From: a virus | IMG/VR virus record: IMGVR_UViG_3300044530_000398 | Coordinates: 1 to 37,168 of that record | Direction: 5' to 3' (one strand) | Length of the DNA: 37,168 nt | In this document: positions 6,701-28,642 of the stretch, piece by piece | Layout: every line of letters begins with the position of its first letter | How positions within the stretch are numbered: the first letter of the stretch is position 1 | Translations under genes and position numbers: made by a program | Notes under the pieces: generated by a model | Told to the model about the DNA's origin: nothing | The model's database searches: none | Seen by the model: only the letters and a program-made list of their open reading frames with translations

Positions 6701-8443
6701 TTGGGACAACCGGCAATTGTGAACACCATGTTCTTCAACTGCTTTGCTTTCGGTAACGGAGCGGAGAGTTACAAGATCAGGGATTCTGTTGTTGGAAGAA
6801 GTTTCAACTTGGGCAACAGGGTTACTGCTGTGTCCGAGCAAGACTATAGGGAGGTCGACAGATCTGCTGATATCACTTATAGTGGTATCTATAACGATGA
6901 ATCAAACCTCAACAAACTCAACGAGTTTAACTTGGGGCTGTTGAATTTTAAGGCACTCGAAGATTCTTTCGGCCCTATCTACATGATGGATGCCCGTGAG
7001 ACGGATGTGCTTGTGCTTCAAGAAGATAAGATATCATATGTATTGGCAGGCAAGAATCTGTTGTCAGACTCAGCCGCAGGCGGTGCAATCACTTCGGTTC
7101 CTCAAGTTCTTGGAACTCAGATTGCTCGCGTTGAGAAGTATGGTATCAGTTTCAACCCCGAGAGTTATGTTCAGTGGGGTTACGACAGATACTTCACCGA
7201 TGTTAAGCGTGGCGCGGTAATCCAAATCAAGGGGAACTCGTACACCAATGACAACTTGATGGTGGTATCAGAGTTGGGGATGAGGACTTGGTTCCGTGAT
7301 GAGTTCATCACATCATTCAACACGCAGAAACTTGGAGGGTACGACCCTTACATGGATGAATATGTGTTGGTTTCCAATGAGATAGAATTGCCAGCGGCAG
7401 ACGATTGCGTTGAGTGTGGCATCAGCCAAACGCTTAGTTTCTTCGAACCCGAGGGGTCAACATTTACATACTGTGTAGATTTGGGGGCATATGTAGGGTC
7501 AGTAGACATCAACTATGTATTCTCAAGCACAGATCCAGCATCTACATTTGAGGTAGAGGCTACTTACAATGGGAATGTTTACACCACTGGCTTTATCAAT
7601 ACGTCAGGCACGTTGAATTTCACCAAGACATCCAACGTTGTTAACACCGTTGAGATTCAAATCACTACAACCGGATTGGCTACGTTGAAGATGACCGCCA
7701 ATTGCCCTGTTCAGCAGTTTATGAACGTGGTTGAGGTTATGTTGACAAGCGATAGCGACGGAGGTCAAACCATTCACGCGCAATACAGATATGTGGATGG
7801 CACTTATACCTCACCATTGCAGTCAACCTTTGTTACGTTCGTCAATGGTACGACCAACCCATTGGTTTCAAGATACGCCATCACCAACGGACCGCAAGGG
7901 GCAGGGAATATACCAACAGACAATAGCACGGTTGCTATCATCTCCAATAAATTCCCAACTGATACGTTTGTCTTCGACTCGCTGAATGACAAATTCAGAT
8001 ACCTCAGAACAAATACATTGTACCCGAACACCACTGTTGGTATCAATGCATTGATTGCCGCCTCAAACTTGGGCTCGCCCATCTTGAGCACAGGCGATGT
8101 AAACCAGATCACATTCAACGCAGGGTCGTCGGGTGACTACTTGTATCTCATTTGGGATTTCAGAGCCTCTGTGGCCTCAGAATTGTGCTATTCGGATATA
8201 AGTTTGGAAGATGTATGTTGTGACTGTGGTCCTTGTGTTGACCCATGTTCTTACTACGAGTTCCAAAACACGGGCGAAACATCAGGTCAAGTTCAGTACA
8301 ACACTTGCGGAGGGTCTCCAGTATTGGTGACGATACCTATAGGAGAATCTGCTAACTTGTGCGGATCAAACTTGACACCACCAACAGTACTCTCTGGAGA
8401 CATCACAATCACAGTGATTCAAGAATGCGGATGTCCTTCATAA
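3779..8443 (+). CDS. Tail stabilization / muzzle protein (P22 gp10-like), 1554 aa
   Basis: The N-terminus carries the signature RNFIAGRMNKSVDERLIPNG followed by EYIDALNVRMGSTEQSEIGV, then TIYWFVHDPN and LLFFTDDYNPPRFINVARGY. I recall these from crAss-like tail stabilization proteins (P22 gp10 type), which form the large muzzle or nozzle at the distal tail. Most of the chain is predicted beta. The last third (from about residue 1207) is a Cys-rich beta module with CVECG, a CCDCGPCVDPC cluster near residue 1482 and an ECGCPS end; it looks homologous to the next gene product. Cysteine pairs are unusual for cytoplasmic assembly but reasonable for an exposed virion part. Likely roles are host contact and sealing of the DNA channel. 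Confidence 0.75.
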   Translation: MANITRNFIAGRMNKSVDERLIPNGEYIDALNVRMGSTEQSEIGVIENIKGNLPLTSLSYVDGTPLSSDAKCIGAFEDGERETIYWFVHDPNFPVGATGKLDLIVSFNVLTGILTYHIISIDDKDHANTTLNFNPQFLITGVNIVKTGNLNDNLLFFTDDYNPPRFINVARGYGNPIANEDDFSAESILVIKRPPAEAPTIVPLVTSGQENFLETRFICFAYRYQYADNEYSATSQFSEPAFLPNAFQFSVDSYLNEGMVNKANAVEVTYYTGGPLVVGIDLLFKEASGNVIRVIEKLDKAKLGIPNEEYRTYVFNNSKIFTVLPESELLRLYDNVPRLAKAQTLMGNRLMYGNYVEGYNLIDKDGQPVKFEYYTQLVTEIIGETEITDSVSDGTYSIDGAETIPGAVFEIDLDGADLVAGAAISVEVTFNHESFSGDTPFPAETTDNVSVTFSFYLPTSYTSVYALATSAEFAEAVGTASTIKPVFSSTPGAQTSCDGTTFTDQVNCAIPNNLDALIKFGSGISAVGEPIGIITSPASTVIGFQLPAMQYVNNTTTPTQYVYEYYEVTFVEATFQQIANPQSLHSNRDYEIGIVYMDEFNRSSTALVSPDNTVHIPCAYSANQNSIYAWIPPEQVAPAWATRYKFVIKPDQENYETIYTSIFFLDPDSNDAYFLLDGENSKKVETGDRLIVKADSSGPTRQCVYATVLEKDSKAADFITIPSTLDPSVNLPVPSGVYMKISPNSFNVINDELAVIAPGKIEVNQDNANEYPLLRYPMNRFDTATNTWVDYDVPAGSRIRLYFKFERLGTGDGSNRCERRIYTLDKTLVASANYDNMFDWWNGDNVKVVLNEGISDVGGNNCDVDNQYIATITNSNVDIPTALCTNYFRFFRDGASNQLQLMVTGTNSCSGAFSGSKRRSSITANVEVFRADTTLIFETEPIDALPDVFFENNMSFSIDANGNHSGNVQNQDINLGQPAIVNTMFFNCFAFGNGAESYKIRDSVVGRSFNLGNRVTAVSEQDYREVDRSADITYSGIYNDESNLNKLNEFNLGLLNFKALEDSFGPIYMMDARETDVLVLQEDKISYVLAGKNLLSDSAAGGAITSVPQVLGTQIARVEKYGISFNPESYVQWGYDRYFTDVKRGAVIQIKGNSYTNDNLMVVSELGMRTWFRDEFITSFNTQKLGGYDPYMDEYVLVSNEIELPAADDCVECGISQTLSFFEPEGSTFTYCVDLGAYVGSVDINYVFSSTDPASTFEVEATYNGNVYTTGFINTSGTLNFTKTSNVVNTVEIQITTTGLATLKMTANCPVQQFMNVVEVMLTSDSDGGQTIHAQYRYVDGTYTSPLQSTFVTFVNGTTNPLVSRYAITNGPQGAGNIPTDNSTVAIISNKFPTDTFVFDSLNDKFRYLRTNTLYPNTTVGINALIAASNLGSPILSTGDVNQITFNAGSSGDYLYLIWDFRASVASELCYSDISLEDVCCDCGPCVDPCSYYEFQNTGETSGQVQYNTCGGSPVLVTIPIGESANLCGSNLTPPTVLSGDITITVIQECGCPS

Positions 8444-9759: not shown

Positions 9760-10554
9760 ATGCCAAACTATACACTAACATATAGCGAACAAGCAAAGGG
9801 GTGGCCATCGTTCTACTCCTATCTCCCCGATTGGATGATTGGTATGAACAATTATTTCTACACGTTCAAAGGCGGTAACCTGTATAGGCACAACGTCAAC
9901 AGCGTTAGGAATAGGTTCTATGGTGTCAACTACTCATCAACATTGCAGAGCGTCTTCAACGAATCTCCGTTGGTGAACAAGTTGTTCAAGACCATCAACA
10001 TAGAGGGAGACGATGCATGGGATGTGGATTTGTACACCGATCTGCAGTCTGGTGGTTTCATATTGCCAAACTACTTTGAGAAGAAGGAGCAAGCGTACTT
10101 CGCTTTCATCCGCAACTCTGGAACAGTACCTGCAAGTCAATCAGAATACCCACTCAGATCTGTCAATGGTATCGGAAGAAGCACAACGATTGTATCTACG
10201 GTGCCGAGTGCGGTCGTAGTCAACTATGCTGTGGCAATTGGTAGCATCATCTCTGTTGGTGACTACCTGTACTACTCCTTGCCTCCAAGTTACTCTTCAC
10301 CAATTCTTTTCGGAGAAGTGACCGACATCATTGTTGACTTGAAGAACGGGATCAACCGGTTGATTGTTGATACCACCATAATAGGAGGTAGCATTCCTTT
10401 GATTCAAGATCCATACACGATGTACATCAAGAACTCCATTGCGGAGTCTCATGGTTTGCTTGGACACTACTGCGTATTCACGATGACAAACGACAATACA
10501 AACAAAGTTGAACTGTTTGCACTTGAATCAGAAGTGATGAAAAGTTATCCTTAA
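9760..10554 (+). CDS. Tail protein of crAss-like phages
   Basis: This is a 264-aa protein. The N-terminus YTLTYSEQAKGWPSFYSYLP, followed by DWMIGMNNYFYTFKGGNLYRHN, is a motif I recall from proteins near the tail stabilization gene in crAss-like and related Bacteroidota phages, sometimes as a separate gene and sometimes as the C-terminus of the gp10-like protein. The rest is beta-prone, with short helices at the end (NKVELFALESEVMKSYP). No catalytic motif, membrane segment or signal peptide is seen. It follows the Cys-rich tail gene by ten bases and is the last gene before a -7 box, so it likely closes the tail-assembly group. The precise role is unknown. Confidence 0.6.
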   Translation: MPNYTLTYSEQAKGWPSFYSYLPDWMIGMNNYFYTFKGGNLYRHNVNSVRNRFYGVNYSSTLQSVFNESPLVNKLFKTINIEGDDAWDVDLYTDLQSGGFILPNYFEKKEQAYFAFIRNSGTVPASQSEYPLRSVNGIGRSTTIVSTVPSAVVVNYAVAIGSIISVGDYLYYSLPPSYSSPILFGEVTDIIVDLKNGINRLIVDTTIIGGSIPLIQDPYTMYIKNSIAESHGLLGHYCVFTMTNDNTNKVELFALESEVMKSYP

Positions 10555-10578: not shown

Positions 10579-10989
10579 ATGGCGCTTCATGCTAGGCTTC
10601 TTTCCCCCACGGACTACGATACCATTTTAGTAGAATGGTGGAATGACTGGGGTTGGGAGGCACCGGCAAAAGACTTCCTGCCAGAAGGTGGATTGAGTGG
10701 TATCATTGTGCTAGACGACGACACGCCTGTGTGTGCCGGGTTCTTCTACACCACCAACTCAAGCGCCGCATGGGTGGATTGGATCATATCGAACAAACAA
10801 TACAAAAAGAAACCCGAAAGAAAGCAAGCCCTTGAATTGTTGATACAGATATTGACAAAGGCTTGCGAGAACCTTGGGTTCAAATATGTGTATGCATTAA
10901 TCAAGCACCCCTCATTGGTGAATGTGTACAAAGAAATAGGATACCAAGAAGGGGATAGTTACAACAAAGAAATGATAATCAAACTTTAA
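10579..10989 (+). CDS. GNAT-like N-acetyltransferase (small)
   Basis: This is a 136-aa protein that resembles small acetyltransferase-like proteins of Bacteroidota phages. The order is an N-terminal WWNDWGWEAP segment, then a beta pair GLSGIIVLDDDTPVCAGFFY, then AAWVDWIISNKQYKKKPERK, a helix LELLIQILTKACENLG, and VYALIKHPSLVNVYKEIGYQ, which fits GNAT motif B (a partner strand and helix followed by the VYKEIGY turn). The classical acetyl-CoA pyrophosphate loop Q/RxxGxG/A is replaced by a NKQYKKKPERK segment, so activity is uncertain. It has its own -7 box but is embedded among virion genes, so it may modify a virion or host protein late in infection. The next gene begins three bases after its stop. 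Confidence 0.6.
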   Translation: MALHARLLSPTDYDTILVEWWNDWGWEAPAKDFLPEGGLSGIIVLDDDTPVCAGFFYTTNSSAAWVDWIISNKQYKKKPERKQALELLIQILTKACENLGFKYVYALIKHPSLVNVYKEIGYQEGDSYNKEMIIKL

Positions 10990-10992
10990 GTT

Positions 10993-11943
10993 ATGGCAGC
11001 AACAACAGCAGCAGTTATAGGCATAGCGTCCTCAGTGGGTGGCACGTACATGAGTTTCAGAGAAGCCAGCAAGCAATCAAAGGCGGCTACCACTGCAAGG
11101 CTAGACGCAGAGAAGGCTATGGCAGAAGCCAAAAAGAGAGCAGAACAGAATGTGTTCGAGGCTTTGTCTCTTGCAAAAGAACCTTACGAGCGCGCGCGTG
11201 AAGCGTCGTTGGCATCTGGTGCTCAAGCGATTGAGGCAGGCAGAGAAAGCGAAAGAGGCATAGCCGCTACCGCTGGTCGTGTGCAGATGTCTCAAAACCA
11301 AATGCAACAGAACATAGCAGACGAGCAGACCGCTCAAATTCAAGGCTTGAACAAACTCATAGCCAGCGAGGATGCTAGATTGCTAGATTATTTGGCTTCG
11401 GTAAATATGGAAGAGGCGGCCGGCGCTCAGAAAGCCGCAGCACAAGCGGACAAATTCAGAGCAATGAACATCGCTCAAGGGATTCAAGGCATTGGCAATA
11501 TCGCGTCAAGCGCTAGTGCATTACTACCCACTTACTATGACTCAAAAGCCACCAATCAATATGAGAAGTTAGCCAAGCAGGCTACATCATCAGGTTTAAG
11601 CCAAGAGCAATTTCAAAATAAATTGGTAGAACTATCTGCCAAGCCCGAGTTCGGTGCGTTATCTGGTGTTGGTTTCTCAGAGAAGTCAGTGGATGCACAA
11701 GGCAAACCGATTGCAAACATGATGACTCCTGTTCAGTTCCAAGATTACATGATTCAAAACCCCGACTTGACCAAGTCGTTGTTGGAGCGGAACATATTTG
11801 AGCCCATTCGAACTACTCAGCCAGCGACAGGGCCAACTACTATGCCACCACAAGTAAACGGGGTGCCATTCAATCCAAACCTACCGCAGACATCGTACTG
11901 GAGTAATGCATCTATGAACCCATTTGATATATACGGAAGATAA
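10993..11943 (+). CDS. Internal virion / ejected protein (316 aa)
   Basis: The N-terminus AATTAAVIGIASSVGGTY is hydrophobic and Gly/Ala-rich, like the tips of podovirus ejection proteins. It is followed by a long Ala/Glu/Gln-rich coiled coil (residues about 25-160), a second hydrophobic Ile/Gly/Ala patch (QGIQGIGNIASSASALL), and a Pro-rich C-terminus. The layout resembles internal virion proteins such as T7 gp14, and it fits the cargo genes found after the tail module in crAss-like phages. The stop codon TAA shares its last base with the ATG of the next gene (TAATG), so the two are translationally coupled. A role in forming the transmembrane conduit for DNA is inferred from composition and position only. 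Confidence 0.6.
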   Translation: MAATTAAVIGIASSVGGTYMSFREASKQSKAATTARLDAEKAMAEAKKRAEQNVFEALSLAKEPYERAREASLASGAQAIEAGRESERGIAATAGRVQMSQNQMQQNIADEQTAQIQGLNKLIASEDARLLDYLASVNMEEAAGAQKAAAQADKFRAMNIAQGIQGIGNIASSASALLPTYYDSKATNQYEKLAKQATSSGLSQEQFQNKLVELSAKPEFGALSGVGFSEKSVDAQGKPIANMMTPVQFQDYMIQNPDLTKSLLERNIFEPIRTTQPATGPTTMPPQVNGVPFNPNLPQTSYWSNASMNPFDIYGR

Positions 11944-13721
11944 TGACATACTACAAATACGCAGAACGAGAGGCGAATAGTCAGATAAACTGGGCAGAAG
12001 TAAGTAAAGGTCTATCCGATACTATTGGTCAAATAGACAAGGACAGGCAAGCCAAGAAGGCAGCCATTGACGAGGCAACTCGCCAAGATATGCTTACGTT
12101 GGCTGACGCACCAAAGGGGGAGAATACAACTGCCTCTGCATGGACAATCAACTATGCCAACGACATGATGAACTACAGGCTCTCCATTGACCGGTTGTTA
12201 AAGTCGGGCAAGATGAGTCTAAAGGATTATCAAGTGGCTTCCCAAAACAGCAAGGACTCTACCAACTTGGTCTTCACCTTATCAAAGGAATACCAAGATC
12301 AATACAAGGTGATCATGGATAGGAAGAGAGCCGGAGATTCTTCTAGATTCGAGACAGAAATCGCCGCGTTGAACGAGTCTTTCGCAAACATATCCAACAC
12401 TGTTCCCACCATTAACTCAACCAATGGTATGGTATACTTGTCAAACCCAGAAGTGGGCGAAGATGGTGTCCAAAAGTTGGGCAAGAACTATGTGAGTCTT
12501 CAAGCATTGCGCAACAGGGTTAATGCCAAGATTGACAGGTACGATTTGAGCGATGGCCTTGCTGCTGCCGCTAGTCAGTTAGGAGATTACACCATTAGCC
12601 AAGTAGGTAGAACCAACTTCAGAAGGACTGGATTAGTCACTGACATTTCGGACCCAACACTTAGGGCAACATATGAGCAGTGGGAAAATGCCACTGTTCA
12701 GGATATCATGGCGAGTGGATACCAATTGGCATCTGTCATGGCGGACAACATGAACATCAACCCAAAGACCGGTAATCAATATCGCATTACCATGGATAAG
12801 GACGAGTTCGATACAGACAAGACCGGTGATGTTATATTGATGGCGAATGAAAACGGGTCTGGAGTATTGATGCCTCAGTTCAAAGAGGATCAGAAGACAG
12901 ACGTAAAGGCTTTCATCAAAGGCCAAATCAAAAACTACATAGATCAGAAGTCAGAAAAGCGCCCATTCCAAGAGCCAGAAGCATACAGACCACAACAGTG
13001 GGAAGTGGAGGCAGGCAAAGCGGCCAAGACACAAAAGGCAGCAGCAGGATATTGGCAACAACTTAGATGGGGTGATGCGACTCAAAAGAGAGACGCCGCC
13101 AATATCATACTTGGTACACCCGAAGCACAGCAAAGAGGTCTTTATGATATATCTGTATCCAATGATGGTAAATCTTTGACATTGAAGTACACCAAAGCAA
13201 GCGGAATACCCGATAGATCTATTCCTTTGGATCAAGCCACCTCATCAAGAGAATGGGCAGGATTGGGTGCTGAAATTCATGGCATTACTGATGCAACAGA
13301 AGCATTGAAAGCGGCCGGCGAAGGGGCTAACAAGCCATTCCAACCATTCTCCACAGGCAAGTTGGCAGGAAGAGATTACAATGCAGACAGTGGGGCATAC
13401 GAAAGATTTAATCAGATGGTCTCAACCAAGCCATTGAAAGACTTGGTTAAACAAGACTCTGCAGAATCAACCGCCAGTCAATTAAACGCTGCATATTCAG
13501 ATTTAGGATTTACCTTTGACTTCAACGAATCTACATTTGGAGTTACCGATGACGTGATAGTTAAATATAACGGCAAGGAAGTTGGAACAGTACCGGTTGA
13601 TAGCAAAGAAGTAGGGTCAGGCAATATCGAATCTTTGATTAGAAAGACATTGAAGAACCCTCCTGCTGAATCAAATCAATCACAAGGAACTGGCACAGTT
13701 AAAGGTGGAAACGTTAGATAA
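11943..13721 (+). CDS. Internal virion / cargo protein (592 aa)
   Basis: This is a hydrophilic, mostly helical 592-aa protein without cysteines or membrane segments that I can see. The N-terminus contains EREANSQINWAEVSKGLSDT, followed by a mixed charged region. A Lys/Gln/Ala-rich stretch (about residues 320-400) and a small alpha/beta C-terminal region (TFDFNESTFGVTDDVIVKYN, about residues 520-560) end in a disordered Ser/Gly/Asn tail. It is coupled to the gene before it (TAATG) and is followed after 16 bases by the 2703-aa gene. The three form what looks like an ejection-protein cassette. I do not recognise a catalytic domain. It could also be a scaffold or chaperone for the giant protein. 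Confidence 0.55.
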   Translation: MTYYKYAEREANSQINWAEVSKGLSDTIGQIDKDRQAKKAAIDEATRQDMLTLADAPKGENTTASAWTINYANDMMNYRLSIDRLLKSGKMSLKDYQVASQNSKDSTNLVFTLSKEYQDQYKVIMDRKRAGDSSRFETEIAALNESFANISNTVPTINSTNGMVYLSNPEVGEDGVQKLGKNYVSLQALRNRVNAKIDRYDLSDGLAAAASQLGDYTISQVGRTNFRRTGLVTDISDPTLRATYEQWENATVQDIMASGYQLASVMADNMNINPKTGNQYRITMDKDEFDTDKTGDVILMANENGSGVLMPQFKEDQKTDVKAFIKGQIKNYIDQKSEKRPFQEPEAYRPQQWEVEAGKAAKTQKAAAGYWQQLRWGDATQKRDAANIILGTPEAQQRGLYDISVSNDGKSLTLKYTKASGIPDRSIPLDQATSSREWAGLGAEIHGITDATEALKAAGEGANKPFQPFSTGKLAGRDYNADSGAYERFNQMVSTKPLKDLVKQDSAESTASQLNAAYSDLGFTFDFNESTFGVTDDVIVKYNGKEVGTVPVDSKEVGSGNIESLIRKTLKNPPAESNQSQGTGTVKGGNVR

Positions 13722-13737
13722 CTTTAAGAAATAATAA

Positions 13738-16700
13738 ATGGAAGATTTAAAGCAAGCACTGAGAGATTTTGTAGCCACTTCAAACAGTGGTAAATACCAA
13801 GACGAAGCCACTTTGTTATCTAAATTCCCCGAGTTGAGTGGGTACAATACGCAAGTATTGAGAGACTTTGTTGCCACTTCTAATAGCGGTCAATACGCTA
13901 GCGAAGAGGAATTGTTTTCAAAGTTCCCCGAGTTCGGTCAACCTGTAAAAAAAAAAGAAGAGTCGTCAGTACCTCTGTGGCTTCAAAAGCAAGAGCAACC
14001 AAAGCCAAAGCCAGAACCAACACTCCCGTTTTTGGAATCCAAGCCTTCGGGTATTTCTTTGGGATCTCAAAGAGTTCCTGAGACTGCCCCTATGTTTGAG
14101 GCTCCTCCAATGAGGACCCCAGAGGAAGCACAAGCAATAGTAGAAACCCCCGAGTACAAAGAGAAACAGTTTTTTACTGGCACATTTGGGGACATTCTAA
14201 AAAATGTAGACAATCCACTAAGCCCTACATCATGGCTTGGTATTGGTGATGCTATTGATGACTTTGGGAGGGCAGTGGCACAAGGCGCAAGTACAGGAGA
14301 TGTAATAGGCCCTACATCAAAAATATTTCTTAACGGAGACAAGGTTTCTGATAAAACCATAGAGGATTTCAGGAAAGCATCCGAGATGGCCGAGAGACTT
14401 GGCCCATCTGATGAGATGGTTTCTTTTTCAAATCAATATCAAGAATCAGGTAAGACCACCGCAGGATTCTTGAAAGCATTGGCCATGAATCCCGGCGCTA
14501 TCCCAGAAATAATGGTGTCTTCATACACTGCAATGGTAAATGCTCCATCATTGCAGGCCGCTGGTGGTGTTATAAGTACTTCTGCTGCTGGTGGTGCAGT
14601 AGTCGGTGGGCCTGCTGGCGCTGGTGCTGCTGCATTGGCTTCTATCCCATACGCAATGGCGGCAATGGGGGCAACACTTGAGACCAACTCATCATTGGCT
14701 GAATCAATCAAAGACAAACTTCAACAAGAGGGACTTGAGTGGAGCGACGAGAATATAAAGGCAGTAATAAGTGATAAAAACTTTTTGAATGACGCGCGAG
14801 TTAAGGCGGCTACAAGAGGTGTTACTATTGGCGCCATTGACGCATTGACTGGTAGAATTGCCGGGAAAGTGGGTGCTAAATTATTGAAAGCACCAAAGGG
14901 AGGCGTTGCTAAATCTGCAGCAGCAGCAGGTGGCATCGAAGCAGTCGGGGGATCTGTAGGAGAAGCCACTGCAAGAGGACTTACAGGAGAAGAGATGGAC
15001 GTCGCAGAGATTGGTCTTGAAGGTATCGCAGAATTGCCGGGGACTGTCGTCAGTGTTGGCGCTGAAGTACTCAAGACGCCCGTGTACAAAATCAATGGGG
15101 AGATTCGTCCAGAGTCCGATGTGCAAGGAATCATAAACACCGCAACAGGCGATGACTTGTCTAAGATAAACATCGAGATAATCAATGACAAGAAAGGTTA
15201 CAAGCAACAGATACAAGACAAGGTTGTTAGTAGCCAAGTAAGGACAGAAGTAAGGGATGTAAACCCAGAACTCCCCGAGGAAACTCTCGATGAGATAGTA
15301 GCCTTGGAGATGGAGCGTAAGAAATTCGAAGGCAAGAAGACGCAATCAGCGAAGGACAAACTTGCCTCTATCAATTCACAAATAAAAACACTACAAGAAA
15401 ATGCCGTTCAAAAGCCAAGCACAGAGGAAGGCGTGTTACGCCCAGAAGAACCCCAAGTGGGACTGCAAGAAGTGGGAGAAGGAGACGCCAAAGAGCAAGT
15501 CCCTACCGAAGAAGTTGTCCAAGAAGAAGTAGAAAAAGTATCCGATGCTTTGAAGAATCCATCGGGGACATACGTTTACAACGGAGAAGTTGGTAACATA
15601 GTTTTAGACGGTCAGACCGTTGTGCTAGAAACGCCGACAAAAATAATAGAGATAGGGAACATAGACGACTTGTCTGATGCTAACCTCGATGAGTTTGGTA
15701 TAGCAAAAGAAGAAGAGTTGGACATTGCAGTTAACGAGGATAACTCGGTAACTATTAAGGGGGAGACCTATCAAAACAATTACAGCGATCCATTGGCGTC
15801 TATAAACAAGGACAAGGATGGTAACTATAGCGTAACCCTTGACACCAAGAATGGCCAGAAACGCACATTCAGAGGTCAAAGAGCGCAAGAGATTGCATAT
15901 CAATACCAACTAAAACAATTCGAACAAAATGCAGAACAACAAATTGACACAGCCGAACAACTTGCAGACGAGGCTATCGCAACTGAAAGAGAAATTGAAT
16001 CAACTTCCGTTAAGCGAAAGGATAAAAGTGTTAGAAAAGCTAACAGAAAAACAAAACAAAGGACTTTAAAGTCTGTCAAGCCAGTTGGTTTGAGGGAAGA
16101 AGTGCTCCCCACTGAAGAGGTTGCTGTTGACGAGGGCGTTCAAGCAGCGTTTGATCGGATTGAAATGCCCGAGGATACGGAAGAAACACAACCCATTAAA
16201 GCACCTAAAAATAAGGACGAAAGAAAGTCGGCTGCTAGAAAAGGTGATATGGTTTATCATAATTTCTTTGGTGACATAATTGAATCTACTCGTGAGCAAT
16301 ACAATGATGCACTTAAAGAAATCGCAGAAACAGGGGCTATTGAAAATGTTCTTAATTATGGTAAGGTAGTATCGCCAAGACAGGCCCCTAGCGAATCAGA
16401 GATTCAATACGAGGCCAGTCTTCTTGATATGAAAAAGGAGGATGCCGGTAGCAATTTAGAGCGAAGGACTACAGAGGCAGTGTCGCCAGAGGTTGATCGC
16501 ATTGACGATGAGTTAAACAAGATCAACGAATCAATTGGTCGTGTCAAGGAAGAGGGGAATACAAGGGATGATGAGCGTACTCTTATGGACTTAGGCGACA
16601 AGATCGCTAGAGCCAAAAGAAACGTGGCATCAGCGGAGGACACTGAAGCCGCCATTGATGAGTTAAGACAGGCTCAAAAAGAAAGAGATGACTTCGAGCA

Positions 16701-19700
16701 ATCCATAGAGAAAAGGAAAAACTTCAATACGGTAGACGCATTGATCTCTGAGGAGATATATCAAAAGGATAGGGACAAGGAGACATATGAATACCAAGAA
16801 CTGTTCGACCAAGACCCACGCCTTGCTGCATTGCAGAGTGCTAAGGACATGGCTGAGTTTGCGAAAGAAAACAATCGTGGCGATGACAGAGTAAAAACAT
16901 ATGAGGACAATATCAAAATACTTGAAGAGGATATTGCCAAGTTCCCTGTAAAGAAAGCGGAAGTTGTGTCGCCGGCGACACAGGTAGTAGAGGCTAAACC
17001 CAAAGTGTCTTCGAAGACACCAAAGGCAAAGAGCGTTCCCATTCCTGTGGCTATACCCAAGCCTACGCCAACACCTTCTCCAACACCTGTTGCGCCAGAA
17101 CCTACCACAAAGGCGGTAGGGCCAGACGCATTGCGTCAAGAATACATCGACAAGACCGCCGAGGTAAGACTGAATAAAGACAAGTCTCGTACACCAAAAC
17201 AAATCGAGGAAAGGATTGCAGAACTCAGAGCCGAGTACAACAAACTCAAGGCCGAGATGACAGCGCCTAAGCCCAAAGCAAAGGTTGAAGAGAAGCCGAA
17301 GGCCGAAGCAAAGCCTGCTCCGGCTAAGGTGGTATCAAAGAAAGATCAGCAAGAAATCAAGGCACTTGAGGACGAGATTGAATATCAAGACCGACAAATT
17401 GAGGATGCAATCGAAGAAATAGGCAATACCGATTATAATCTCAAGGAGGCCCTTGCCGAGATCAAAAAGAAAAGAGATGAACTCAAAGGCAAGAAGATGT
17501 CCAAGGAAGAAAGACAGGAAGCCAAAGATGAACTCGAAGCAGAAATCGACGAAGCCAAGGAAGAACACGATACCTACTTAGAGCAGTATAACGACCAATT
17601 ATCAGAGGCGAAGAAAGCAAAGAAGAGAGCGGAGGCAAAACTTGCCAAGTTAAAAGCCAAGCAGGCAGAGCCTACGTCAGTAGTAGAGGAAGAGGAGCCA
17701 TCATACGATGACATCAAAGACCTTGACCCTACCGATGAAACTGCGCTTGAAAAAATATTAAGGAAACTAGACAGCGGTGATGCTTCGCTCAAAGAGTTTG
17801 GCCGTGGGAATCTATCCAGCGGTATGGCTGTGCCATTGGCAAGGGCTATCATCAAAGCATTGAAGGTATTGGTTAAGACTGGTATCACATTGCAAGAAGC
17901 CATCAAAAGAGTGGCCGCCGAGAACAATCTTGAAGCCAAGGACATCGTCAACATGATCAAGGAACTTGACAGTGCTCAATCTCCCATGGTTAAATTGAAA
18001 GCGCAGGTTCAGAATGAGATTCAAGCGGTGAAAGATGGGGTGCGCAATGCCAACGAAGCAGTGCAAGCCATCGTGAAGTATTTCAACTTCAACGCAGAGC
18101 GTGGTAATTTGACGCGTAGGGACCTCGGAAGAGTAATCAATGTCATCGCCAAGGTGAAGGATCAAAAGTCCTTAAACAAGGCCGCAGATAAGATATTCGA
18201 AATCATCGACAAGGCAAAGACCGACGTAGTAGAAGTGAGCGAGTCAAAGGCATTGGTTTCTCAGATCAAATTGGAAGCGCGTGCCGCGTTGAATGCCAAG
18301 AAAGATGTCAATCAAAAGCGCAAGGATCTATCCAATGTCATCAAGGCAATGGAGACCACCGGCAGAATATCAGCAGCCAAGGCAAGAGCCATACTCAATA
18401 GGATCGGCAAGGTGAACCTTGACAACCCTGCATCTGTGGATGCGTTCTTGGATTACGTAGAGAATGTGTTCGAGGATGCGGCTTACGAGGTAGAGTTGGC
18501 TGGTATCAATGCCAAGATTGCAAGGGCAAAGAAGAATATAAACAAGAAGATTGGTACCGCTAGCAAACTCACGCCGATACTCAACAGATTGTTCAGCATC
18601 AAGCCATCTCTAATACCTGCTGAAGCATTCGATGCTTACAAGGATTTGATTGATATGTTTGGGGCTAGCGATGCTGTGTTGGCATTGGACGAAATCAACA
18701 GCGTAACCGATCAAGTTCAATTAATACTGGATCAAGTGGATGATCAGTTGTCATCTGTTCCAGACTTGGCAGAATTGCTGTTCAATTATAACAAGGCAGT
18801 ACTCAACGAAGACGGATCTCTCAACTACGCAGAGACCATCAAGAAGATGAAGGAAGACGAAGTGATTGATGACAAGCAGTACGAGTTGATGCAGAAGTAC
18901 AAGTCATACATACTTCCAAAGACCATGAAGGTGCCTCAAACCAAGCAAGAGATTGAAGCCGAGAAGGCTGAACTCATATCTCAAGTGAACAAGGCATCGG
19001 TTGACATATCTGCATTGGCCACTGACGACGAGAAGAAGATGGCGTCAGACTTGGTAAAACTAGCCAAGTCAAACGCGGCGTCAAGGCTTACCAATAGGCA
19101 GTTGGCGAACCTTCTCAGAGTATTCGACAACATAAACAATGGCTACCTGCCCAACTATGCCAACACTTTGTTCGTAGATCTAGAGGCGGCGAAGAACTCA
19201 AGTTTCTTGAGCAAGGCAATTGCCAAGGCAAAGATGCCAACGCTTGCTAAGGTCGCATCTAAATTGAGATTGGCAAAGAGCCAGAGGGAATCTGTGTTTG
19301 GTCGTATCAAGAACCTTCCGTTGTTCAACATCGATGAAGTGTTTGGCGATTTCAAAACCAAAGACATATTCAATTCCGTATTCAACGCGCTGGCACAAAG
19401 CCAACAGAGATACATACTCGAGATTGAGAAGGTATCAAAGAAGTTGGATAACGCATTTGATAAGGTGGCAACATCATTCAAGAACAACCCCAACAAGTTG
19501 GTTGAATCTAAGATGAAGTTGGCTATCTACAGAATTCAAAGAGAGTTTGAATCCAACCCCGGTGACCCAAGGGTAAACGCCGCCATTGAGTACATCAATG
19601 AGACAGTGAAGGCAATCAACAACGGAGACACCATGTACTCTGATGAAGATGCCAAACTATTGGAGCAGATAGCAAAGGATTACAGCGATGCCAATGGTGG

Positions 19701-21849
19701 TATCGATGCCAAGAAATTGTACAACTCCTTCAACTCGGCAGAGAAAGAAGCCCTCGATGTATTCGATGAGATCAACAAGTCCTTGGAGAAATACGCTGTG
19801 TTCACCGGTGATGTGATTCGTGGCGACAAGGTTTACTTGTTGAACAATTACAACCACTTGAATGTACTGCCCAAGAAGAACGAAAATCCCGACACCATTG
19901 GTGACGCGATCAAGAAGTTCGATACTAAAGGTGTGGTATCTACCAAGGCGAAGTCTTTGATTGAAAGAACTCAAGGCGCAAAGGCAATCAACTTTGACAT
20001 CTTCTCTACCATGCAGAGAGGTGCCAACTACGTGTTGATGGACTACCACTTGACCAACCCTGTTCGGGTAGCAAGAAGGACCATCTCATCCACAAGGCAA
20101 CTCATGGAAGAGCAAGGTACTTTGACTCAAGAAAAGAACAACGTACTCAACGCCATCAGCGATTCAGTGGAGTTGGCATTGAAGGCCATGCTCGATAGTT
20201 CAATGGTTAAGGATACGTTCGCTGACATGGTCGTTAAGGAACTGGCGAAAACCGGTTATAGAGCGATGCTTGCAGGTATTCCTAGGGCGACAACGGAACT
20301 TACTTCCAACATGGCTTATGTGGCTATGGTTGGATTCTCCGAGTTCAAGACTGGCCTTAATCTATGGGACAAACTAGTCAGTGGAGATGCCGTTAACATC
20401 ATGGAAGCGGTGGGAAGTAAGGTTATCTCTCGTATCTATGGATCTGATCCACTCGGAGGTAGGCTTATCGACACATCCGTGTTGAGCAAGAAGACCGGTA
20501 TTGGAGAGAGTTCTCTCAAGGGAGGATTCAGAAACGTAATCAATACCATCCACAACAACTCTACCAAGAAGGTAAAGAACGCTGTGGAACTGACGGCAGA
20601 TACATTGGTGTCTACGCCTGATAAGATAATGATGCGTCCATTGTGGTTTGGATCATTCAGCAATGCGTTCAAGGATATCACCGGCGTACAACCAGACTTT
20701 GAAAAGATCGCAGCAAGGGACGTTGACTACATGATCAAATACCAAGATGCCATGGACTCAGCAGGTAAAGTGGCTGACGAAAAGGTAACCATGGCCGGTA
20801 ACGTAGACAACCCATTCATGAACTCTTTGAGGAGTTATGTACCATCAGATGTGTCTGCGCTGACCAAGTCGTTCAAGATATTTAACAACTTCATGAACAA
20901 ATTTATGATTGGTGAATTCTTGACAGCAAGGCGTGGTGCACTCGCAATGGTGGGCAACGGCAACATATCTAAAACAGAAGGCGCCAAGTTAATGGCGGCG
21001 GTTATAGCCCGTATGACAGTGTACTCAGTGATGTTGAGCATGGTGTCTCAGTTCTTCTACGGATTGTTCTTGGATGACGAGGACGAGGATGATGAGAAAT
21101 CATTCGCTCAAAAACTTGGGCAAGGCTTGGCATCAACGCTTACAAGTTTGTTGTTGGGTAGGGATTTCGGTAACGCGATGAGATCGGTAGTGAACTATGG
21201 CGTTGAGAAGGTCAATGAAAAGTATCTTGACTTCTTGCGTGATGGTGAATACGATCCATACGAGGATGCCATCCAATACACGTTCATACCACCGGAGAAG
21301 AAGGGTAAATCTCTCGAGGCATTCGATGTGTTGGCTAACGTATCGGGACCATACGCTCCATCATTGAAGTCGATGGCTTTCATCACAAAGAAGTTGACAG
21401 AAACGCCAAAGAAAGAAGGCGATGCCATAGAAAGACAAGAGCAAGAAAGAAATATTCGTATACCACTAGAGGTTCTCGGTAACTTGGGTTACTTGCCATT
21501 GTACAAGGACGTCAGAAGCATCGTGAACAAGTCGATCTACAGTGAACTCGACAAAGAGATGGACAAGAAAGGCGAAAGCAAAGAGGAGTTCAAGCCAATG
21601 GGATTGAACAAGACTGATCTAAAGCGCTACTACCCAGAGATTTACGAGCAGTACTATGGTGAGGGCACAGAGGAAGATGCCAAGCGCAAACTCGAGTACG
21701 AAAAGAATCGCCTTGAAAGAGAAATGAAAGACGAGTACTACCAATACGTGCCAAAGCAAAGATCAAAGGCTGGCTTCGGAGGCAGAGGATTCGGAACAGG
21801 TACGGGTAAAAAGAGCGGAGGCTTTGGTAGCAAAGGTTTTGGAAAGTAA
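13738..21849 (+). CDS. Giant internal virion protein, 2703 aa (polyvalent/ejected)
   Basis: The order is as follows. Two 33-aa repeats lie at residues 8-73 (RDFVATSNSG...SKFPE in each), then a Pro-rich linker. A Gly/Ala-rich hydrophobic region at about 270-315 could enter a membrane, with similar patches to about 440. Charged helical and coiled-coil stretches run at about 480-580, 720-790 and 900-1080. A Pro/Lys-rich linker at about 1085-1185 is followed by a long Glu/Lys coiled coil (1200-1320) and a helical body to about 2250. There is a hydrophobic helix at about 2420-2443 followed by an acidic run (DDEDEDDEK), and a Gly/Phe/Lys-rich tail. No RNA polymerase metal motif (DxDGD type) or peptidase motif was found. 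Size, position and hydrophobic patches fit an ejected cargo protein. Confidence 0.65.
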   Translation: MEDLKQALRDFVATSNSGKYQDEATLLSKFPELSGYNTQVLRDFVATSNSGQYASEEELFSKFPEFGQPVKKKEESSVPLWLQKQEQPKPKPEPTLPFLESKPSGISLGSQRVPETAPMFEAPPMRTPEEAQAIVETPEYKEKQFFTGTFGDILKNVDNPLSPTSWLGIGDAIDDFGRAVAQGASTGDVIGPTSKIFLNGDKVSDKTIEDFRKASEMAERLGPSDEMVSFSNQYQESGKTTAGFLKALAMNPGAIPEIMVSSYTAMVNAPSLQAAGGVISTSAAGGAVVGGPAGAGAAALASIPYAMAAMGATLETNSSLAESIKDKLQQEGLEWSDENIKAVISDKNFLNDARVKAATRGVTIGAIDALTGRIAGKVGAKLLKAPKGGVAKSAAAAGGIEAVGGSVGEATARGLTGEEMDVAEIGLEGIAELPGTVVSVGAEVLKTPVYKINGEIRPESDVQGIINTATGDDLSKINIEIINDKKGYKQQIQDKVVSSQVRTEVRDVNPELPEETLDEIVALEMERKKFEGKKTQSAKDKLASINSQIKTLQENAVQKPSTEEGVLRPEEPQVGLQEVGEGDAKEQVPTEEVVQEEVEKVSDALKNPSGTYVYNGEVGNIVLDGQTVVLETPTKIIEIGNIDDLSDANLDEFGIAKEEELDIAVNEDNSVTIKGETYQNNYSDPLASINKDKDGNYSVTLDTKNGQKRTFRGQRAQEIAYQYQLKQFEQNAEQQIDTAEQLADEAIATEREIESTSVKRKDKSVRKANRKTKQRTLKSVKPVGLREEVLPTEEVAVDEGVQAAFDRIEMPEDTEETQPIKAPKNKDERKSAARKGDMVYHNFFGDIIESTREQYNDALKEIAETGAIENVLNYGKVVSPRQAPSESEIQYEASLLDMKKEDAGSNLERRTTEAVSPEVDRIDDELNKINESIGRVKEEGNTRDDERTLMDLGDKIARAKRNVASAEDTEAAIDELRQAQKERDDFEQSIEKRKNFNTVDALISEEIYQKDRDKETYEYQELFDQDPRLAALQSAKDMAEFAKENNRGDDRVKTYEDNIKILEEDIAKFPVKKAEVVSPATQVVEAKPKVSSKTPKAKSVPIPVAIPKPTPTPSPTPVAPEPTTKAVGPDALRQEYIDKTAEVRLNKDKSRTPKQIEERIAELRAEYNKLKAEMTAPKPKAKVEEKPKAEAKPAPAKVVSKKDQQEIKALEDEIEYQDRQIEDAIEEIGNTDYNLKEALAEIKKKRDELKGKKMSKEERQEAKDELEAEIDEAKEEHDTYLEQYNDQLSEAKKAKKRAEAKLAKLKAKQAEPTSVVEEEEPSYDDIKDLDPTDETALEKILRKLDSGDASLKEFGRGNLSSGMAVPLARAIIKALKVLVKTGITLQEAIKRVAAENNLEAKDIVNMIKELDSAQSPMVKLKAQVQNEIQAVKDGVRNANEAVQAIVKYFNFNAERGNLTRRDLGRVINVIAKVKDQKSLNKAADKIFEIIDKAKTDVVEVSESKALVSQIKLEARAALNAKKDVNQKRKDLSNVIKAMETTGRISAAKARAILNRIGKVNLDNPASVDAFLDYVENVFEDAAYEVELAGINAKIARAKKNINKKIGTASKLTPILNRLFSIKPSLIPAEAFDAYKDLIDMFGASDAVLALDEINSVTDQVQLILDQVDDQLSSVPDLAELLFNYNKAVLNEDGSLNYAETIKKMKEDEVIDDKQYELMQKYKSYILPKTMKVPQTKQEIEAEKAELISQVNKASVDISALATDDEKKMASDLVKLAKSNAASRLTNRQLANLLRVFDNINNGYLPNYANTLFVDLEAAKNSSFLSKAIAKAKMPTLAKVASKLRLAKSQRESVFGRIKNLPLFNIDEVFGDFKTKDIFNSVFNALAQSQQRYILEIEKVSKKLDNAFDKVATSFKNNPNKLVESKMKLAIYRIQREFESNPGDPRVNAAIEYINETVKAINNGDTMYSDEDAKLLEQIAKDYSDANGGIDAKKLYNSFNSAEKEALDVFDEINKSLEKYAVFTGDVIRGDKVYLLNNYNHLNVLPKKNENPDTIGDAIKKFDTKGVVSTKAKSLIERTQGAKAINFDIFSTMQRGANYVLMDYHLTNPVRVARRTISSTRQLMEEQGTLTQEKNNVLNAISDSVELALKAMLDSSMVKDTFADMVVKELAKTGYRAMLAGIPRATTELTSNMAYVAMVGFSEFKTGLNLWDKLVSGDAVNIMEAVGSKVISRIYGSDPLGGRLIDTSVLSKKTGIGESSLKGGFRNVINTIHNNSTKKVKNAVELTADTLVSTPDKIMMRPLWFGSFSNAFKDITGVQPDFEKIAARDVDYMIKYQDAMDSAGKVADEKVTMAGNVDNPFMNSLRSYVPSDVSALTKSFKIFNNFMNKFMIGEFLTARRGALAMVGNGNISKTEGAKLMAAVIARMTVYSVMLSMVSQFFYGLFLDDEDEDDEKSFAQKLGQGLASTLTSLLLGRDFGNAMRSVVNYGVEKVNEKYLDFLRDGEYDPYEDAIQYTFIPPEKKGKSLEAFDVLANVSGPYAPSLKSMAFITKKLTETPKKEGDAIERQEQERNIRIPLEVLGNLGYLPLYKDVRSIVNKSIYSELDKEMDKKGESKEEFKPMGLNKTDLKRYYPEIYEQYYGEGTEEDAKRKLEYEKNRLEREMKDEYYQYVPKQRSKAGFGGRGFGTGTGKKSGGFGSKGFGK
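13759..13935 (+). repeat. Two tandem 33-aa repeats at the N-terminus of the giant protein
   Basis: Both units contain LRDFVATSNSGxY followed by SKFPE with a period of 33 codons (RDF at residues 9 and 42). Third positions differ (GAT TTT GTA versus GAC TTT GTT), so protein sequence rather than DNA is conserved. The position at the extreme N-terminus suggests a small targeting or docking module, for example for packaging into the head; this is inference. Confidence 0.75.
16966..16981. repeat. 16-bp dyad, GC-centre variant (GTGTCGCCGGCGACAC)
   Basis: A perfect palindrome in the coding sequence of the giant virion protein, within its Pro/Lys-rich linker (encodes V-S-P-A-T). It belongs to the GTGTC-N6-GACAC family. 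A TTCGAA-centred copy starts 39 bases downstream in the same codon phase. Confidence 0.85.
17005..17020. repeat. 16-bp dyad, canonical copy (GTGTCTTCGAAGACAC)
   Basis: Perfect palindrome, identical to the copies at 24665, 34114 and 36214. Here it is read GTG TCT TCG AAG ACA (V-S-S-K-T) in the linker of the giant virion protein. It is the only place in the window with two family members close together. Confidence 0.9.
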
Positions 21850-21850
21850 G

Positions 21851-22258
21851 TCAAGAATATTTTATATATTTGAAGTGCTTTTGTTTTGCGTAATAACACA
21901 TTAGTTCTCCGTGTTCAGCAAGGTTAAGATGGGGGAGGAAACTCCCCCATTTAATTTGAGCCTCAACGTCTTTGAGTTTGGCATAGATGATACCATCATC
22001 ACACGCCCATACAAGCACCGGCATTAATCTTTTATCGGCTAACTTGACAATCCGTGCGGTGGGCACCACCAATGGATAAGCATTCGCTATTGTCTTGTAC
22101 CTCGGGGTGACTTCTATGTAAGCCAACAACTCCCCATCCTTGATTATCTTGTAGTCTACATCGCCTTTCGATTGCGGTTGGTATGATCCGCCAAAGGTTG
22201 ATGTGAATGTATCGATTGCTTTCTGTTTTCTTTTCTGAATCTCTTCGTTAGAAATCAT
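21851..22258 (-). CDS. Putative PD-(D/E)XK nuclease-like protein
   Basis: This is a 135-aa protein from the ATG at 22258; an upstream TTG is possible. It contains GDVDYKII, ELLAYIEVTPRYK and then YPLVVPTARIVKLADKRLMP, followed by VLVWACDDGIIYAKL. The D...E-V-T spacing with a following basic helix resembles the PD-(D/E)XK fold of resolvase- or Vsr-like nucleases, but the last catalytic Lys is replaced (EVTPRYK), so activity is uncertain. Its start overlaps the end of the VRR-NUC gene by 11 bases. It is the last gene of the leftward block, and its stop is one base from the stop of the giant virion gene. Its coding sequence contains a rightward terminator hairpin. Confidence 0.55.
   Translation of the reverse strand: MISNEEIQKRKQKAIDTFTSTFGGSYQPQSKGDVDYKIIKDGELLAYIEVTPRYKTIANAYPLVVPTARIVKLADKRLMPVLVWACDDGIIYAKLKDVEAQIKWGSFLPHLNLAEHGELMCYYAKQKHFKYIKYS
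21927..21957 (+). terminator. Rightward terminator inside the converging gene
   Basis: A perfect 9-bp stem (21929-21937 with 21942-21950), extendable to 11 bp, has a GAAA loop and is followed by TTAATTT on the plus strand. It would end the late transcript about 90 bases past the giant gene. It lies in, and codes for WGSFLPH of, the opposite-strand gene. The minus strand has no matching T-tract, so it should be one-directional. Confidence 0.7.
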
Positions 22259-22688
22259 CTTCTTCAATGGATTTGATTATATTCTTTATCTCGATTATGA
22301 TTTGCTGTGCACTCTTGGTGGCATCGGGATAATCGCGGTCGACAATATCCTCATAAAGATTAGCGAGTAGGTCTTGGCACTCTTCGATGTTGAAGAGTAT
22401 GCGCTCGGCCCTGTCTAGTTCTTTTCTTTTCTGAGGGTCCATGTCTATCTCTCCTCTATAAACTTCGGTTCTGAGGCCATGCTTTTGCAGTTCGCTAAGG
22501 CGGTACTCCTGCAACTTGGATAGCCTACCGGTAGGGGTCTTGACTTCGCTAAACAAAACTCTTGATCTGGGCGGTATGGCAATGATGTCCGGGATTCCAT
22601 TCTTGTTGGTCTTGATTAGTTTGATTACGTAGTACCCTTTGCTTTCGAGTTGCTTAATTCTCTTTGATTGTATTTGTTGCTCTGTCAT
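22248..22688 (-). CDS. VRR-NUC domain nuclease
   Basis: This is a 146-aa protein from the ATG at 22688; a longer frame up to 22721 overlaps the neighbour more and lacks support. The catalytic core of the VRR-NUC branch of the PD-(D/E)XK superfamily is visible: GIPDIIAI at residues 31-38, FSEVK at 46-50 (E48, K50), then TPTGRLSKLQEYRL with Q60 and a hydrophobic strand LRTEVYRG. The C-terminal 65 residues are helical and acidic (ERILFNIEECQDLLANLYED). VRR-NUC proteins of phages are structure-specific or Holliday-junction nucleases, so a role in resolving replication or recombination intermediates is likely. It overlaps genes on both sides, in an operon with helicase and primase. Confidence 0.85.
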   Translation of the reverse strand: MTEQQIQSKRIKQLESKGYYVIKLIKTNKNGIPDIIAIPPRSRVLFSEVKTPTGRLSKLQEYRLSELQKHGLRTEVYRGEIDMDPQKRKELDRAERILFNIEECQDLLANLYEDIVDRDYPDATKSAQQIIIEIKNIIKSIEEDDF

Positions 22689-23010
22689 AGTTCGACTCCG
22701 CGTGGTGCATTGCTTCTTCAAAACTAATGAAATCGCCTATAACTTTCTTCATGTAATACAATCTATAAATCCAATGGCCATCACCCCACATCTTTTTTAT
22801 TACAGTGCCATCCATCATTGTGTCGTAGTTGGACCTATAGTAATCAGCAGAGGATTGCTTCTTTAGACTTCCATTAAAGTGGGAGTACTCGACCTCCTGT
22901 TGCCCATGCTTGAGCAGTCGTTCTCTATTCTCTTCAAGCCAAATGCAGAACTCCATCCATCTGAGTTCGTCATACTTCTTGAATATTATTTGCGAGGTTG
23001 TCTGCTTCAT
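22654..23010 (-). CDS. Hypothetical protein, 118 aa
   Basis: I do not recognise this protein. From the ATG at 23010 it has 118 residues: a Lys/Arg-containing N-terminal helix (KYDELRWMEFCIWLEENRER), then a probable beta region (MMDGTVIKKMWGDGHWIYRL), then a helix ISFEEAMHHAESNYDRATN. The stretch MWGDGHWIYRLYYMKKVIGDF is reminiscent of a similar IIEWRVYYLQEIVARF stretch in the tiny ORF at 23329-23496, so the two may share a small module. It overlaps the upstream gene by 41 bases and the nuclease gene by 35 bases, which indicates translational coupling in the early operon. Confidence 0.55.
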   Translation of the reverse strand: MKQTTSQIIFKKYDELRWMEFCIWLEENRERLLKHGQQEVEYSHFNGSLKKQSSADYYRSNYDTMMDGTVIKKMWGDGHWIYRLYYMKKVIGDFISFEEAMHHAESNYDRATNTIKEN

Positions 23011-27904: not shown

Positions 27905-28642
27905 TTATAGTGTTTCGTTAATGTAATGGTTGATGATATCCTCTTCGGCATTGGGTCCGAAGTATCGTTTGTAAATTTCAGATGCTCGCTGCACCTTCTG
28001 CGCTCCGTATTCTACGAACTCTGTTGATGGCCTATACATCCCCAACTGACAGGTCTCTTTGTCAACGACAAGGAATACCAATGGCTTACCGAACAACTGT
28101 TGGTAGATGTAGCATTGGCTGTCGTAGTTGTAGGCACGAGCAGAGTACTTGAACTTGTTGATGTCACCGGTGGTCTTCAAGTCGACAACAAATTCTGGAG
28201 TGACGATGTCGGCCTTCCCTTTCCAAGGTAGATCGTGGAAGGTGGTGACCTCGGGCACCTCGTACTGATTGCCTTTGCCGTAGATCAATTCGTAGAACGA
28301 ATAGTTCTTGCGGATGGCAGACGCCCATCGGTTCACTTCCTCCACCTCCTTGGTGAGCATGCAGAAACTGATGCCACGCTCTTGGATGAACGACTTGTAC
28401 TCCTTGGTGGTGCGCGTTGATGTGTCGCAGATGGGGAAGTCAACTACCTTATCCGGCTCGAGCAACAACTGATGGAACAAACGACCTTCAGCCAAGGCTT
28501 TGCCATCCTTCCGATGGGTGCCAAAAGCAGTAGGATTATTCAGCAAAGTTCCTACATCTGAGTTTGACAGGAACTGTTTGCCTATCCCGGTATAGTATTC
28601 TTGGTCGTTTTCAAGCGATTTAAGAACCTCTAACCTATCCAT
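27905..28642 (-). CDS. PD-(D/E)XK exonuclease (RecB/RecE-like)
   Basis: This is a 245-aa protein from the ATG at 28642 (a TTG nine bases upstream is possible). Recognisable parts are ALAEGRLFHQLLLEP (about 49-63), the conserved helix motif of phage exonucleases of the DUF3799/RecE-like group; VTTFHDLPWKGKADIV (about 132-147) with the catalytic Asp; FVVDLKTTGDI (about 151-161) with D-x-K; and YDSQCYIYQQLFG with the Gln/Tyr helix. It would degrade one strand of DNA ends to give 3' single strands for the annealase encoded just upstream. The start overlaps the annealase stop by eight bases, and the SSB-like gene begins seven bases after this stop. The three form a recombination cassette. Confidence 0.85.
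   Translation of the reverse strand: MDRLEVLKSLENDQEYYTGIGKQFLSNSDVGTLLNNPTAFGTHRKDGKALAEGRLFHQLLLEPDKVVDFPICDTSTRTTKEYKSFIQERGISFCMLTKEVEEVNRWASAIRKNYSFYELIYGKGNQYEVPEVTTFHDLPWKGKADIVTPEFVVDLKTTGDINKFKYSARAYNYDSQCYIYQQLFGKPLVFLVVDKETCQLGMYRPSTEFVEYGAQKVQRASEIYKRYFGPNAEEDIINHYINETL

Follow-up and report, generated by a model that had tools for sequence, protein, structure and literature searches.

A giant protein with a constant C-terminal scaffold and exchangeable front and middle modules, a candidate gp16-type ejection protein in a phage with a crAss-like tail

We analyzed a stretch of viral DNA of 37,168 bases (hereafter, the window) in which a single uninterrupted ORF on the plus strand (13738-21849) encodes a giant protein of 2703 aa, the last gene of the virion block. 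With a probability of roughly two in three, we read this giant as an internal virion (ejection) protein that stands where gp16 stands in T7, within a block of three genes, and that carries exchangeable cargo in its front and middle. This reading builds on the ORF and its gene order, on a C-terminal end that stays constant among relatives with front and middle swapped, on effector-type domains in the relatives' giants, and on all-helical models in which gp16-type chains head the structural matches. In profile searches of the giant itself, the sole PHROG match was phrog_32588, a family of unknown function (E 2.6e-100, residues 1847-2655), with nothing below E 0.2 in Pfam and no match in NCBIfam. 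PDB sequence searches with the giant and with an alignment of its C-terminal part (A3) gave chance-level matches only, and a motif scan found neither DxDGD nor HExxH. A near-identity DNA search among phages found no match, and tblastn of the giant among phages led to MW202828 only. The original prediction that this protein is without a recognizable enzyme core is thus borne out for this copy, in which profile, PDB and structure searches found no polymerase or peptidase match.

The giant shares its strand with the virion genes and begins 16 bases after the preceding gene. Upstream, a 1554-aa tail protein stands in the muzzle position (3779-8443, plus strand; phrog_14478, head and packaging, E 1.5e-231), and the muzzle C-terminal domain occurs as a separate gene (9760-10554, plus strand) that matches the Crassvirales muzzle family PF25729 (crAss_MUZ_C; E 1.6e-18, 67.3 bits, cut-off 27); a 431-aa gene separates the two. 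The muzzle genes are followed by a 136-aa gene and then by genes for 316, 592, and 2703 aa. In T7, gene 12 is followed by genes 13, 14, 15, and 16, and the window's order of rings/muzzle, 316, 592, and 2703 aa parallels T7 genes 11-12-13-14-15-16, so that by gene order the giant is the large third gene of a gp14-gp15-gp16-type block behind tail/nozzle genes. The 316-aa protein (10993-11943, plus strand), which we propose as gp14-like, has a hydrophobic N-terminus and matches phrog_13764 ("virion structural protein," E 1.6e-14), and this upstream neighbor is conserved. Judged by eye, a short hydrophobic Gly/Ala segment opens the protein in this position in all 26 loci listed, as expected for a gp14-like membrane protein. 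The 592-aa protein (11943-13721, plus strand), proposed as gp15-like, matches phrog_35506 (unknown function, E 3.6e-11), and its syntenic counterpart in phage phi40:1, gp100, was detected by MS/MS. The small gene between the muzzle and the ejection block (10579-10989) showed a weak acetyltransferase match in PHROG (E 8e-4), and MW202828 has an annotated N-acetyltransferase in its place.

Phi40:1 shows the same order in gp099, gp100, and gp101 (200, 549, and 1691 aa), all annotated "structural protein, experimental MS/MS" of virions, and in the Elemovirus block, with proteins of 202, 450, and 3694 aa, the outer two are called structural. C-terminal similarity links the Elemovirus giant to the one studied here (BLAST aligns residues 1463-2454 at E 7e-14; hmmsearch of C-terminal profiles gives 3e-26 and 5e-29), and the C-terminal profiles found no match in gp101 of phi40:1 by BLAST or hmmsearch. 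Since gp101 is the only member of this position seen here with direct MS/MS backing and is not matched, presence of the giant in virions is argued from synteny, and its packaging and ejection are proposed. Conceivably, the giant could be a non-virion late protein (a factor for lysis or for the membrane, for instance) whose gene only happens to lie beside the virion genes: it contains hydrophobic stretches, and the phage is known here from sequence alone. Its strand, the spacing of 16 bases after the preceding virion gene and the detection of the syntenic phi40:1 product in virions speak against such a protein, which we consider very improbable.

Comparison by hhalign with single T7 sequences of gp14, gp15, and gp16 yielded no similarity, with a probability near 0 for A3 against gp16, and we therefore file the giant as a protein that works like gp16, not as a gp16 homologue. 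Little sequence similarity is described even between the P22 and T7 versions of the ejection protein (PMC8954989). Profiles of the C-terminus and of the 592-aa and 316-aa families reached noise level only when run against phi14:2 gp076-gp082 or gp076-gp081.

Structural comparison centered on the constant C-terminal scaffold (residues 1504-2675; 18247-21762, plus strand), which is predicted to be all-helical. AlphaFold2 model 1 (residues 1504-2703, 24 sequences) had a pLDDT of 64 and a pTM of 0.45; model 2 (residues 1840-2500) had a pLDDT of 74 and a pTM of 0.77 and was built from 43 of 68 C-terminal slices, those under 480 residues or more than 90% identical being left out. Both models consist of helices only, with no strand of at least 3 residues. 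When model 1 was searched with VIA-align, chains of the PhiM1 ejectosome, the T7 core, the E1004 core, and again the T7 core took places 1-4 with Z-scores of 9.0, 7.5, 7.0, and 6.6, values in a range (under about 13) where similarity between helical models may come from a shared arrangement; 948 chains were aligned, 13 of them at Z of at least 5 (nine besides the gp16-type four). With model 2 and 984 chains aligned, these gp16-type chains again filled rows 1-4, at Z-scores of 7.4, 7.3, 6.6, and 6.0 in that same range; these four were the only ones at Z of at least 5, with 188-227 residues aligned, and the next row stood at Z 4.5 with 86 residues. The top chains 7eyb_I and 9jyy are T7 gp16, 9vvp_L is a homologue, and the PhiM1 chain is gp16-like by title and size only. 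The core that aligns with these proteins in both runs spans residues 1856-2259 (19303-20514, plus strand). Foldseek returned nothing at E of 1e-3 or below from the PDB for either model; among viral models, it returned an Elemovirus structural protein together with several ART-PolyVal, MuF, and large polyvalent protein entries. The fold link that these models draw between the constant C-terminus and T7 gp16 is suggestive, not proven.

Two further features of the C-terminal part recur in the family. At residues 2415-2454 (20980-21099, plus strand), a hydrophobic stretch (2415-2445) is followed directly by an acidic run (2446-2453), and this pattern is kept at the same position in all 24 sequences of A3, with the letters of the acidic run varying among relatives. 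A hydrophobic helix next to an acidic run near residue 2445 had been described earlier; its position and pattern hold, and its hydrophobicity does not stand out, the giant's peak (KD19 1.78) being no higher than the mean maximum of shuffled copies (1.74). The protein ends in a basic, Gly/Phe-rich tail (residues 2674-2703; 21757-21846, plus strand). A net charge of at least +3 over the last 20 residues is found in 45 of 60 family members vs. 12% of random 20-mers, which recalls T7 gp16, whose positively charged last residues are reportedly required for infectivity (PMC8954989).

The extent to which the rest of the protein is exchanged was counted across 60 giants, comprising this one, that of MW202828, 23 recovered in an initial IMG/VR scan, and 35 in a later one run with the C-terminal alignment. 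Truncated ORFs (L100, L115) and repeat contigs were left out; the set includes look-alikes (L098/L116; L087/L088/L101; L015/L027) and two members open at the 5′ end (L091 and L101). By BLAST, the C-terminal ~1200 residues match 58 of the 59 relatives at 38-72% identity, a count that is partly by construction, since the giants were gathered largely with C-terminal probes and not dereplicated. The sole miss is MW202828, whose giant has an N-terminus and middle pieces common to several relatives and a different C-terminus. The remaining parts are distributed more narrowly. An N-terminal tag made of two ~31-residue repeat copies (residues 1-66; 13738-13935, plus strand) has a BLAST match in 11/59 relatives, with looser versions of the repeat in alignment A4; related repeats open many relatives, including the giant of MW202828, and they are possibly a packaging or ejection tag. 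The Gly/Ala-rich N-module (residues 130-580; 14125-15477, plus strand), which holds the Gly/Ala patches noted previously and located here at about residues 261-320 and 361-430, matches 32/59 relatives within residues 130-550, and in many others unrelated sequence stands in its place. Middle module A (residues 603-780; 15544-16077, plus strand) recurs in two relatives only (L008 and L024), and middle module B (residues 896-1140; 16423-17157, plus strand) in five (L002, L003, L010, L022, and L052). A charge-rich stretch (residues 1141-1480; 17158-18177, plus strand) is matched in 32/59; D, E, K, Q, and R make up 60% of residues 1201-1300, and the long coiled coils of the original prediction fit such stretches as judged from composition alone.

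L002 and L052 are 70% identical to this giant in the C-terminus, and their N-modules are matched in part only (L002, at 28%) or over the last 100 residues only (L052); L003, at 71% in the C-terminus, shares the whole N-module at 73%, and L022 shares it whole at 69%. Module B is 57-61% identical in L002, L003, L022, and L052, and module A is 59% identical to that of L008, a relative with a C-terminus of only 43% identity and no match to the N-module. Judged from these alignments, exchange of front modules separates even close relatives (L002/L052 vs. L003/L022). A short linker of ~40 residues (548-590; 15379-15507, plus strand) is found by BLAST in 30/59 relatives, and is kept even where the modules on either side differ; it may be a point of recombination or of cleavage.

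The middles of related giants carry domains of effector type. In Pfam searches of 17 members, ART-PolyVal was found in one (L015, E 4.1e-5), GNAT in L002 (E 6.5e-6), and PF21724 (DUF6861) in four, reaching E 3.4e-5. Among 33 further middles, a set without L109 (too short) and L116, LPD23 was found in eight (best 1.6e-13), SprT-like and GNAT in five each, and ART-PolyVal, DUF3990, and DUF6782 in three each; of the matches that were located, LPD23 (5/5 rows) and one SprT-like match alone lay above the Pfam cut-off, the ART matches lying below it at 24.8 and 30.1 vs. 31.2 bits and the GNAT match at 26.9 vs. 27 bits. Weak Pfam matches to TFIIA, HisKA, and similar families were also seen in relatives. 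HExxH, absent from this giant, occurs in 20 of the 60 giants, where its surroundings appear zincin-like on visual inspection. Eight of the giants (L062, L079, L087, L088, L094, L101, L104, and L107) have two such sites each, a motif count that suggests two zincin-like domains per chain. A search for LPD38 (PF18857) found no match and was uninformative, since the control genomes were likewise without one. Polyvalent proteins of phages are described as carrying ADP-ribosyltransferase, GNAT, zincin, and LPD23 types (PMC5512222). Such proteins unite several disparate effector domains in a single chain; Pfam, PHROG, and NCBIfam recognized no effector domain in this copy.

For that reason, among others, the giant could be a plain structural or ejection protein whose middle serves as spacer or coiled coil, with the enzyme domains of relatives being incidental. 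The long charge-rich stretches and the very short middles of some relatives agree with such a protein. However, modules A and B are discrete blocks shared with relatives at 59% and 57-61% identity, respectively, which is unexpected of a neutral spacer, and we judge this alternative unlikely, though not negligible. On the preferred reading, an ejection protein with exchangeable cargo, the giant's own middle modules would have an effector role.

A giant gene after the tail module also raises the question of a virion RNA polymerase. The position of the giant after muzzle and virion genes is the place of the polymerase block in crAss001 (gp47/49/50) and phi14:2 (gp076-078). The earlier argument against a polymerase relied on the absence of a DxDGD motif, a test that fails on its positive control: phi14:2 gp077 (2180 aa), which from its size we take to be the solved crAss-like virion RNA polymerase, is without DxDGD and has one DxDxD only. 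The giant also has one DxDxD (DEDED at 2447, vs. 0.87 expected by shuffling), and it sits within the unconserved acidic run. Among ORFs of at least 90 aa in the related loci scanned, DxDGD occurred in two, a muzzle-position ORF of 1178 aa in L023 (1-3534) and one of 168 aa in L037 (17994-18497); neither has the size expected of a polymerase. A conserved DxDxD in a double-psi beta-barrel, the mark of a crAss-like RNA polymerase, was not found, the models, which cover residues 1504-2703, being without a beta-barrel. The N4 virion RNA polymerase did appear in the first VIA-align list and was disregarded (Z 3.5, rmsd 19).

The original prediction proposed that the polymerase might lie elsewhere in the genome. 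None was found in the relatives scanned, and the window itself is a fragment (related records reach 60-64 kb), so that absence of a polymerase from the whole phage cannot be concluded from it. A PHROG scan of ten larger ORFs of relatives G011 (eight) and G015 (two) identified TerL, portal, capsid, tail, and tail fiber proteins, GroEL, and amidoligase-like and gamma-glutamyl cyclotransferase-like proteins and no polymerase, bearing in mind that profile searches can miss a crAss-type polymerase of low similarity. PF00940 (RNA_pol, N4/T7-type) was found in none of 11 records (the window and ten related ones), with a positive T7 control, and no polymerase is annotated among the features listed for MW202828 (circular, 69 features). 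The ORF lists of G011 (62,418 b) and G015 (59,833 b) contain nothing above 1,200 aa besides the giant and the muzzle-position gene; in both, the giant gene runs off both contig ends, as in a circular genome cut open.

It could still be argued that the giant is a divergent virion RNA polymerase of crAss or N4 type with a motif that has drifted past recognition, given that crAss polymerases are described as extremely divergent (PMC7886860) and that the virion RNA polymerase of DEV is placed in the same kind of position (PMC10925440). Such a polymerase would, however, have to be reconciled with a constant region that consists of helices only in two models, as opposed to the double-psi beta-barrels described for the phi14:2 polymerase (PMC7886860), with a sole DxDxD in an unconserved run, with the failure of PF00940 outside the T7 control, and with a variable middle that is reduced to a slice of only 255-383 residues in L011, L012, L013, and L023, leaving no room for a conserved polymerase. 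We therefore regard it as highly unlikely, and a virion-module protein without a polymerase is the supported description of the giant.

The lineage of the phage bears on the same question. TerL and portal queries were taken from relative G011, as the window is without both genes, and each matched 87 phage records: 68 of Flavobacterium (Elemovirus isolates, among those listed), 15 of Cellulophaga, two of Tenacibaculum, one of Maribacter, and MW202828. The nearest named relatives are thus Elemovirus, Pervagoviridae, Pachyviridae, and MW202828, none of them filed in Crassvirales in the taxonomy lines seen; the lines for four matched records read Elemovirus, Pervagoviridae, and Pachyviridae (twice), and phi14:2 is filed in Crassvirales. 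The designation "crAss-like phage" holds for the tail, through the PF25729 muzzle domain, and judged from these matches the lineage seems to be a neighbor of Crassvirales. With relatives filed outside Crassvirales, a crAss polymerase is not to be expected, and an Epsilon group without the transcription block is described even among crAss-like phages (PMC7886860). The Bacteroidota-type promoters that had been cited in favor of host polymerase did not withstand counting, as the consensus TTTG-N17-23-TAnnTTTG has two matches in the window vs. 1.02 expected. Early transcription would be left to the host polymerase under the mechanism proposed here.

In T7, gp14 is described as the outer-membrane pore, gp15 as the periplasmic tunnel, and gp16 as the inner-membrane end (PMC8954989, PMC12633501). 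By analogy, we propose that the 316-aa protein enters the outer membrane and that the 592-aa protein provides a lining across the periplasm; the giant's constant C-terminal 1200 residues, unfolding during passage through the tail, would form the inner-membrane or cytoplasmic end of the channel. The front and middle would be the exchangeable cargo region; the ADP-ribosyltransferase, GNAT, zincin-type peptidase, and LPD23 cargo of relatives would take effect within the host immediately upon entry, and this copy would carry its two middle modules (A and B), without a recognized enzyme, as cargo. More broadly, the third ejection gene of podoviruses might be a general delivery scaffold with changing cargo, namely a transglycosylase in T7, an RNA polymerase in N4-like phages, and in this lineage host-takeover modules that rotate on a gp16-like scaffold at the short conserved linker, with modules A and B possibly supplying a new activity; we put this forward tentatively, as a generalization more doubtful than the reading of this giant itself.

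Each of these elements has known counterparts. Like T7 gp16 and its homologues (PhiM1, E1004), the giant comes third in a block of three genes behind a nozzle-like gene and is the largest of them, is helical in its models, has gp16-type proteins as top structural matches in two runs, and ends in a basic tail; unlike them, it is without sequence similarity, twice as long, has no transglycosylase that could be found, and has a large exchangeable front and middle. With the phage polyvalent proteins, as described by Iyer et al. (2017; PMC5512222), it shares its giant size and a gene encoded next to virion genes, and its relatives carry ART-PolyVal, LPD23, GNAT, and zincin-like peptidases; in contrast, none of those domains was recognized in this copy, and the constant C-terminal scaffold is its defining part. 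DEV and N4 are described as having a giant virion RNA polymerase where gp16 would stand in an operon of this type, that is, a giant third ejection protein with cargo in the ejection block (PMC10925440, PMC12633501), whereas no polymerase domain was found in the giant here. The virion RNA polymerase has itself been called a polyvalent protein (PMC9569702). The giant structural protein of Elemovirus (elemoB, 3694 aa), from 60-kb podoviruses of Flavobacterium, is a syntenic C-terminal homologue, but with about 22% identity and a longer front. The cargo of crAss001 (gp45/gp46 and gp47/49/50) likewise follows the muzzle and is described as extruded through the tail (PMC10172136), but the giant has no detectable sequence match to phi14:2 gp076-gp081 in that place and no polymerase.

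None of the elements (polyvalent proteins, gp16-type proteins, and cargo carried by ejection proteins) is new in itself; the novelty lies in finding them combined in this phage lineage, in the definition of a constant scaffold, and in the count of module exchange. Our literature search found no paper combining "polyvalent protein" with "DNA ejectosome." If the reading is true, DNA ejectosomes and polyvalent effectors are joined as one subject, and new phage host-takeover domains should be sought in the region before the constant ejection scaffold.

Other genes of the window and of related phages deserve mention. A convergent block after the giant gene opens with a VRR-NUC nuclease (22248-22721, minus strand; PF08774, E 1.1e-11). 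Farther along, a Sak-type annealing protein (27905-29345, minus strand; PF06378, E 2.4e-52) adjoins a DUF3799 PDDEXK-like protein, and the two probably form a recombination pair. GroEL genes occur in L031 (10612-12225), MW202828 (40671-42561), and MT497068 (25410-27223), the last two, which are annotated, also having GroES; chaperonin genes are thus present in 60-kb podoviruses.
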